Assembly (NCBI GenBank): GCA_003566635.1
Contig: PXCK01000233.1
Coordinates: forward strand, 1-49,248
Source: Balneolia bacterium
GTDB taxonomy: Bacteria > Bacteroidota > Rhodothermia > Balneolales > Cyclonatronaceae
Reading direction: 5' to 3'
Length of the DNA stretch: 49,248 nt
Position numbers and translations under genes: made by a program. The first letter of the stretch is position 1; every line of letters starts with the position of its first letter. Shown one piece after another: positions 37,596 to 39,755 of this stretch. Under the pieces are notes generated by a model. That model was not told the DNA's origin. It searched no databases and saw only the letters and a list, made by a program, of their open reading frames with translations.

Positions 37596-38393
37596 ATGAA
37601 TAAATCGCAAATCAAACAAGTACAAATATGGCTGAACCAACAAGGTTATGATAGCGGCAATCCTGATGGAATTGTAGGCCCAAGAACCCAAAAAGCACTC
37701 AATAGCGTTCAGGAGCTGCCAAATGAATGGAATTTAACACGAAAGCTTGTAGGGTTTATACAACTAACGGCTCAAAGTGCAGGATTAGACCCCGGACCAT
37801 TCGATGGACTTTGGGGACCACGCACCCAATTTGCTTATGATGAAATGCTTCGTCGTGCGAGTAGGTCAGGGAGGTTGCGAGAACTTCGCAGACCTGAAGA
37901 AGCTATACCACCGAACCCTAATCAGTGGCCAAGCCAACAAACCGATGCTCAACTTATATCATTTTATGGAGAGCCTGGAGAAAATCAGGTTCGGGTTCAA
38001 TTACCCTATCCACATAAATTAGCTTGGGATACAAACACTATTGTAAACAGTTATTTATGCCATGCCAAAGTTCATGACAGTATTTCAAGGGCATTGACAA
38101 AGGTAACCGAGGTTTACTCAGAGCAGGATATTCGACACTTAAGACTTGATTTGTGGGGCGGTTGTTTAAACGTAAGGCGAATGCGGGGAGGAACTCGTTA
38201 CTCAACCCACAGTTGGGGAATAGCGGTTGATTATGACCCTGAACGAAACAGGCTTCACTGGGGCTTTGACCGAGCGTCCTTTGCTAAAAGCGATTATGAT
38301 GATTGGTGGAAAGCCTGGGAAGACGAAGGATGGGTCAGTTTAGGACGCCAGCGCAATTTCGATTGGATGCACATTCAGGCAGCGAGACTTTAA
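37596..38393 (+). CDS. Peptidoglycan-binding and M15-type D,D-peptidase/endolysin-like protein
   Basis: Two PG_binding_1-like repeats (QVQIWLNQQGYDSGNPDGIVGPRTQKALNS; GFIQLTAQSAGLDPGPFDGLWGPRTQFAYDEML) followed by GGTRYSTHSWGIAVDYDPERN...FDWMHIQ (M15 His/Asp metal motif). No signal peptide. Confidence 0.82.
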   Translation: MNKSQIKQVQIWLNQQGYDSGNPDGIVGPRTQKALNSVQELPNEWNLTRKLVGFIQLTAQSAGLDPGPFDGLWGPRTQFAYDEMLRRASRSGRLRELRRPEEAIPPNPNQWPSQQTDAQLISFYGEPGENQVRVQLPYPHKLAWDTNTIVNSYLCHAKVHDSISRALTKVTEVYSEQDIRHLRLDLWGGCLNVRRMRGGTRYSTHSWGIAVDYDPERNRLHWGFDRASFAKSDYDDWWKAWEDEGWVSLGRQRNFDWMHIQAARL

Positions 38394-38461
38394 TCCGGAT
38401 TTTCTGGTGGACAAATTCCATCAATAAATGAACTTCGGGCTATATTGTGATATCGGAGGGT

Positions 38462-38664
38462 AATTATGAATTATGGATTATGGATTATGAATGGGATTAT
38501 CTTAAGTGGCATAATTTCAAATATTTAAGATCCATATTCGTGACAATTAAGTGAATAGCTTTCAATTATACCGGCGATACAAACACAATCGAATGCAATT
38601 GATTTTATTGGTTTTGGAGGCCTCATGGCAAAAATTCATAATTCATAATCCATAATTCATAATT
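38462..38664. mobile_element. 203-bp non-coding MITE-like element bounded by 31-bp terminal inverted repeats
   Basis: AATTATGAATTATGGATTATGGATTATGAAT (38462-38492) versus the reverse complement of ATTCATAATTCATAATCCATAATTCATAATT (38634-38664): 30 of 31 match. No ORF inside. Confidence 0.65.
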
Positions 38665-38795: not shown

Positions 38796-39755
38796 ATGAA
38801 ATATTTTCTAGCCCTTATAATTACTTCCTTTCTCTTTGTTGGTTGTAACGATGTAAGCTCACAAAATTCTGCTACTAACGTTGAAATTGACAGAGACCAG
38901 CTACTTCGTGATATTCAAATTTTATCCAGTGATTATTTTGAAGGACGCAAGCCTGATACCAGAGGAGGTTTTATTGCACAAGGGTATGTGATCGGACGTT
39001 TTGCCGGAATTGGCTTAAATAGAATCAGTGATACATACACACAGCCATTCCAAACTGTAAATCAACGAACTAATGAAGAATTTAACCACGCCGCAAATGT
39101 AATAGGATATATTGAGGGTACAGAAAATCCTGATCATTATATTGTGGTTACTGCTCACTTTGATCACTTGGGAACAAGCAATGGCGATATTTTTAATGGT
39201 GCTGATGACAATGCCTCCGGTGTTGGCGGTATGTTTGCAGCGGCAGAATGGTTTATAAATAACCCACCAAGTACCAGCTTACTATTTATTGGATTTGATG
39301 CCGAGGAACAAGGGCTTAGAGGTGCTCGTTATTTTATTGAGAATCCTGTTGTTCCATTAGAAAGTATTGTCATGAACGTTAATCTTGATATGATTAGCTT
39401 GAATACAGAGAATAGAATTTATGCAGTTGGAACCTATCATTACCCATTTTTAAAGCCATTGGTTGAGAACGCCACAGCAGACGCTCCAATTGATGTCTTA
39501 TTTGGACATGATTCTCCAGATTTACCGCCGGGCGAAGACTGGACGATGTCGTCAGATCACGGTCCATTTCACAGTGTGGGTATCCCATTCATTTATTTTG
39601 GTGTAGAAGATCACCCGCATTACCATACGCCAACCGATATATTTGAAAATATTACACCTGAGTTTTACTACAATGCCACTAAAACGATTATTGAAACAAT
39701 ACGAGAATTCGATTCCCAAACCGAAGTGATCAAAGAAGCTTCAGGTAGGTTTTAG
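38796..39755 (+). CDS. M28 family metallopeptidase lipoprotein
   Basis: Lipobox FLFVGCN; VVTAHFDHLG...IFNGADDNASGVGGMFAAAEWF...LLFIGFDAEEQGLRGARYF...SSDHGPFHSVGIPFIYFGVEDHPHYHTPTD. Confidence 0.93.
   Translation: MKYFLALIITSFLFVGCNDVSSQNSATNVEIDRDQLLRDIQILSSDYFEGRKPDTRGGFIAQGYVIGRFAGIGLNRISDTYTQPFQTVNQRTNEEFNHAANVIGYIEGTENPDHYIVVTAHFDHLGTSNGDIFNGADDNASGVGGMFAAAEWFINNPPSTSLLFIGFDAEEQGLRGARYFIENPVVPLESIVMNVNLDMISLNTENRIYAVGTYHYPFLKPLVENATADAPIDVLFGHDSPDLPPGEDWTMSSDHGPFHSVGIPFIYFGVEDHPHYHTPTDIFENITPEFYYNATKTIIETIREFDSQTEVIKEASGRF

Follow-up and report, generated by a model that had tools for sequence, protein, structure and literature searches.

The 203-bp element at positions 38462-38664 of the window (the whole 49,248-nt stretch of Balneolales DNA that was analysed) is a real, dispersed repeat that lacks a gene for S23, the four-helix-bundle protein (PF05635/TIGR02436, also called IVP). 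Arms of the same heptad type bracket S23 genes in relatives of the host and across phyla. At S23 loci, runs of RRT triplets spaced 7 nt apart are most often exactly five long, which is the number found in each arm of the window element, and this peak at five is new here.

An intergenic element with heptad-repeat ends

The element is non-coding and intergenic, with 31-bp inverted ends around a 141-bp interior:

37596-38393, + strand: upstream gene (context), peptidoglycan-binding domain and M15 peptidase-like domain (below the Pfam cut-off)
38462-38492, + strand: left arm, five RRT triplets spaced 7 nt apart; fits the S23-arm heptad motif with 21.6 bits
38493-38633, no strand: 141-bp non-coding interior ("type A"), common to copies on host contigs C166 and C56; no ORF, no Rfam family
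38634-38664, - strand: right arm, likewise five RRT triplets spaced 7 nt apart, in the minus-strand reading
38796-39755, + strand: downstream gene (context), M28 peptidase

The left arm reads AAT TATG AAT TATG GAT TATG GAT TATG AAT, a 7-bp unit of RRT plus four bases. Both arms follow the pattern AATTATG AATTATG [G/A]ATTATG ... AAT with period 7, are 97% complementary (30/31) and lie 141 nt apart, and their fit to the heptad motif ARTKNTR exceeds 20 bits. An inverted-repeat search of the whole window gave a score of 24 for the longest near-perfect repeat; 30 dinucleotide shuffles reached no more than 17. The single-strand fold of the element (-63.5 kcal/mol, z -7.2) is far below that of shuffles because arms of such complementarity demand it. 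The interior has no ORF of at least 50 amino acids, and an Rfam search of the element matched no family, rRNA included. An earlier sequence-only reading had described these inverted ends of iterated units and an interior without an ORF, and both descriptions hold; it had also seen no target-site duplication, and on re-inspection none is visible at the window copy or at the copy on C166.

Dispersal within the host genome

The same heptad arrays recur at about a dozen places in the host assembly (2.85 Mb in 246 contigs, 87% complete). The array pattern ATTATGRATTATGRATTATG, allowing up to 3 mismatches, has 67 matches in the genome with overlaps counted, and its reversed control has 4. Three of the places share the type A interior. 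The copy on C166 is 76% identical across the whole element, with homology ending at the outer edges of the arms (query 22-225 = 38461-38664), and that on C56 retains the interior and the right arm. Copies on C217 and C84 are about 200 bp long and have different interiors; these two and the window element carry five triplets in both arms, other host copies reach five in single arms, and the number per arm varies from 3 to 7. When we searched 40 relatives for the interior we did not find it, the only matches being short arm-like stretches in eight genomes. Because there are multiple host copies and the interior is missing from these relatives, we regard the element as dispersed and its interior as seen only in this genome; the alternative of a single copy, identical in all relatives, does not apply.

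Searches of the host with PF05635 and an S23-subfamily profile gave no match in the 87% complete assembly, in which several contigs end at these elements. Since the assembly has no S23 gene, the host elements are orphan S23-less copies, and since the interior also has no ORF, the window element can only be a non-autonomous derivative. The proposal of the sequence-only reading that this is an emptied or non-autonomous copy therefore stands in its second part: the element is a dispersed copy without S23, but it is not emptied, as its interior is a non-coding sequence common to three copies. A decayed S23 gene as the source of the interior was ruled out, both because the six-frame translation of the window has no similarity to S23 profiles and because the interior is shared and non-coding.

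An IS3-family element (L287:310-1620, on host contig C147) has two ORFs that match the IS3-family transposase model, orfB at 4e-45, slightly below the curated cut-off. Its ends (TGTAAGTGCC... and ...GGCATCTACA; given as TGTAGATGCC.../TGTAAGTGCC... where a transposase origin was weighed) are unlike the heptad arms. Ends or relics of the IS adjoin heptad arrays at about nine places, in differing orientations, the further contigs being C102, C8, C107, C188, C156, C227 and C162. Because the IS lies beside or inside arrays in varying orientation and has different ends of its own, the arrays look like its targets, which suggests that this element chooses heptad hairpins for insertion. Such insertions explain both the "type B" interiors and three contigs that end there; we therefore rejected type B as a second element family, as it is the IS3-family insertion adjoining heptad arrays.

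Heptad arms bracket S23 genes

PF05635 was found in 93 of 129 genomes of the order, with up to 16 genes per genome; the order-level relatives searched include records named Balneolaceae and Gracilimonas. We sought an inverted repeat between the 200-bp flanks of 134 distinct S23 loci from this set. The best repeat had a median score of 16, as opposed to 8 when flanks were swapped between loci, and 95 loci scored at least 14 where 6.7 were expected from swapped flanks. Among 102 armed loci the best period was 7 or 14 in 88, and autocorrelation peaks at lags 7 and 14. For a cross-phylum set, we scanned GTDB genomes with the recN-type S23 subfamily and obtained 80 loci that span Bacteroidota, Balneolota, Chlorobi, Planctomycetota, Chloroflexota, Cyanobacteria and others; here all 68 loci with arms had a best period of 7 or 14. 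The suggestion in the sequence-only reading that such repeats flank four-helix-bundle genes is thus borne out for S23 in the order and across phyla, and bracketed genes of this kind are present in relatives, though none was found in the host.

The heptad word varies by locus (AGTCTTG, AAGATTT, CAGCTAT and AATTATG are examples), and S23 protein similarity tracks word similarity (Mantel r 0.25, reached in 0 of 2000 permutations, with homologous-outer-flank pairs removed). The word class of the window element, ATT[AT]TG, brackets one S23 subfamily immediately upstream of recN, whose genes match both TIGR02436 and PF05635; its ARTKNTR class is in use at S23 loci. In a minority of loci (L134, L114, L142, L106 and similar) the arm period is 8 nt, with GTTACAGA and AAAGTGAC words. 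Upstream of one S23 gene in a Tenacibaculum sp. (L303), the arm has 14 perfect AGTGTTG units, an apparent slippage expansion. Among the openly available journal papers searched, none was found that links S23 to heptad repeats.

Across 79 GTDB S23 loci, 43 upstream and 45 downstream flanks had a longest RRT run, at 7-nt spacing, of exactly five; for a run of four the counts were 14 and 12, and for six 8 and 8. At other spacings the same flanks gave runs of about two, composition shuffles gave almost only 1-3, and control windows elsewhere in these loci held at least five triplets in 6 of 600 cases. When the 134 loci of the order were counted by dinucleotides, whatever their word, the shared run was five in 46 and six in 6. 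The mode at five in the GTDB set survives thinning to 70% protein identity and is much weaker at 60%, where clades with different words prevail; the use of such words or of the 8-nt spacing by some S23 clades is part of the reason.

The S23 gene at recN

An S23 gene occupies the recN site in 26 of 30 genomes inspected. Its left and right arms match with a median of 16 within a genome and 9 between genomes, and the word differs among genera. Because a genome's own right arm beats that of every unlike genome in only 12 of 26 cases, within-genome matching is a tendency. Close pairs of recN-linked S23 genes have dN/dS of 0.03-0.06, and purifying selection of this strength indicates that the gene is no decaying passenger; at this locus S23 looks vertically inherited, without recent mobility. 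Upstream of recN (L256-L282) the S23 element comes after a conserved TGTAAGGAATT...CTCTTACTTA stretch, which is also present in genome G032, where there is no S23.

Turnover is visible in one orthologous intergenic gap of genus g8. In G025 and G041 the gap contains a heptad hairpin of 80 bp, in G042 a short remnant, and in G016, G043, G013 and G030 other repeats, while in G032 it is nearly empty; this shows that the hairpin was gained or lost within the genus. The g8 genomes carry further heptad-type hairpins elsewhere. We saw no excision product or target-site duplication of heptad elements. The gap is a hot spot of repeat turnover; other dispersed-looking palindromes, TGTCATTTCGAAGGAGC... 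and TGTCATCCCGAGC..., lie in it in G043, G013 and G016 (L379, L381, L382) and in G030 (L385).

A proposed explanation and its alternatives

To our knowledge, no function has been assigned to S23. Pentamers have been described for the S23 fold and for the related Avd, and the solved S23 structures 2RLD and 2GSC have five chains per entry, the number of chains in a crystal being no proof of the oligomer in solution. From five triplets per arm and five chains per structure, we propose that one arm corresponds to one pentamer. Each 31-bp arm would be a putative site for the homopentameric S23 bundle, one RRT triplet per subunit, and would probably be bound single-stranded, its DNA wound round the S23 ring. 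Two inverted sites would define the ends of an element; a gene between them would make the resident-gene form, and S23-less copies such as that in the window would be dispersed by the same process, persisting after the gene's loss or in its absence. S23 binding, single-strand wrapping and a part for S23 in arm spreading are all inferred here. On balance we favour, by a modest degree of confidence, the view that the window element is an S23-less member of a dispersed hairpin family whose arms are each one S23 homopentamer site and were spread by a shared process.

The arms could instead be kept as a long RNA stem, serving as a terminator, an mRNA stabiliser or a substrate of the RNase III type like the intervening sequences of 23S rRNA; S23 would bind the RNA or be processed with it. 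The strong predicted stem and the fact that 23S rRNA intervening sequences gave S23 genes their name speak for this, as does the proposal that cyanobacterial heptad hairpins influence transcript stability, coupling or termination (PMC2670836). Against it stand the lack of a U run after the stem, the lack of an Rfam match, and the differences between left and right arms. Motif positions 1-3 (ART) mismatch in 8-11% of cases, positions 4, 5 and 7 in 24-33%; the gene strand has no surplus of differences compatible with G.U pairing (36 vs 41 for loci of the order, 40 vs 47 for the GTDB loci); and many differences break base pairs yet remain within the motif. Because the differences have no G.U bias and are concentrated at positions 4, 5 and 7 while ART stays, S23-type arms seem to preserve their motif and not base pairing, a feature that is new here and that fits a pair of protein sites in DNA better than an RNA stem. 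We rejected an RNA stem under selection for want of G.U bias, and consider an RNA-hairpin element unlikely overall.

We think it quite unlikely that the element is an ordinary MITE with heptad terminal repeats, moved by a DNA transposase such as that of the multi-copy IS3-family element. Its 200-bp size, inverted ends, dispersed copies and common interior would suit a MITE, and IS3-family ends do adjoin the arrays. However, those ends, which belong to the one IS found in a non-exhaustive search of the contigs, differ from the arms, the varying orientation of the IS makes the arrays look like targets, type A copies are free of IS sequence, no target-site duplication is seen at the window and C166 copies, and the triplet number per arm is variable. 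Simple 7-bp slippage tracts, lying inverted by chance and with no protein partner, would draw on the commonness of heptad repeats in bacterial intergenic DNA (PMC4679880). This origin is very improbable, since inverted pairing around S23 genes far exceeds the swapped-flank null, runs cut off at five triplets, and arm words correlate with S23 phylogeny.

We put forward a broader proposition tentatively and with somewhat less than even confidence: S23 would be a class of sequence-specific ring protein that reads RRT triplets in fives, 7 nt apart, and S23 with its arms would be a cross-phylum selfish or domesticated family, a second REPIN/RAYT-like system, whose S23-less copies, that in the window included, seed heptad hairpins. 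S23 is widespread and structurally solved, and joining it to heptad hairpins, with five on both sides, yields one question that can be tested by binding; the ends of the window element suggest what S23 recognises.

Comparison with known systems

We find the element best read as REP/REPIN-like, with S23 apparently occupying the place of RAYT. Like REP/BIME/REPIN sequences with their RAYTs (PMC3116915, PMC2817692), heptad elements are short, dispersed intergenic palindromes, present in several copies in the host genome, and in both systems a resident gene bracketed by inverted repeats occurs alongside gene-free dispersed copies. REPs also serve as targets of IS elements (PMC1525189), which the IS3-family element at heptad arrays resembles. 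The systems differ in that the gene between like arms in relatives encodes the S23 four-helix bundle and not RAYT, an HUH tyrosine transposase; in that heptad ends are five-triplet arrays at 7-nt spacing and REP ends are GTAG-type palindromes; and in copy number, about a dozen as opposed to hundreds.

Cyanobacterial STRR hairpins (PMC2670836) and Beggiatoaceae TAACTGA repeats (PMC4679880), as presented in the pertinent sections of those papers, are likewise 7-bp iterated intergenic units. The STRR heptads form hairpins, the function of heptanucleotide hairpins such as these being described there as unknown (PMC2670836), and two cyanobacterial S23 loci (L344, L372) have heptad arms. In contrast, these sections mention neither an S23 gene nor a five-unit rule (PMC2670836, PMC4679880), and the TAACTGA repeats are described as mostly direct repeats upstream of start codons (PMC4679880). 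The 23S rRNA intervening sequences with an S23 ORF, from Leptospira and Coxiella (PMC4990558), also carry PF05635/TIGR02436 inside an element with inverted ends; they lie within 23S rRNA, whereas heptad elements are intergenic and the window copy, which sits between the peptidoglycan-binding/M15-like gene and the M28 peptidase gene, has the inverted ARTKNTR arms with no S23 gene between them.

The closest likeness to the proposed mode of binding comes from a different protein. TRAP, a ring-shaped 11-mer, binds RNA through one short triplet per subunit at fixed spacing, and S23 would probably be wrapped by its arm as TRAP is by triplet-repeat RNA. In both cases triplet number would equal subunit number, TRAP being an 11-mer on RNA and S23 a pentamer, probably on DNA.
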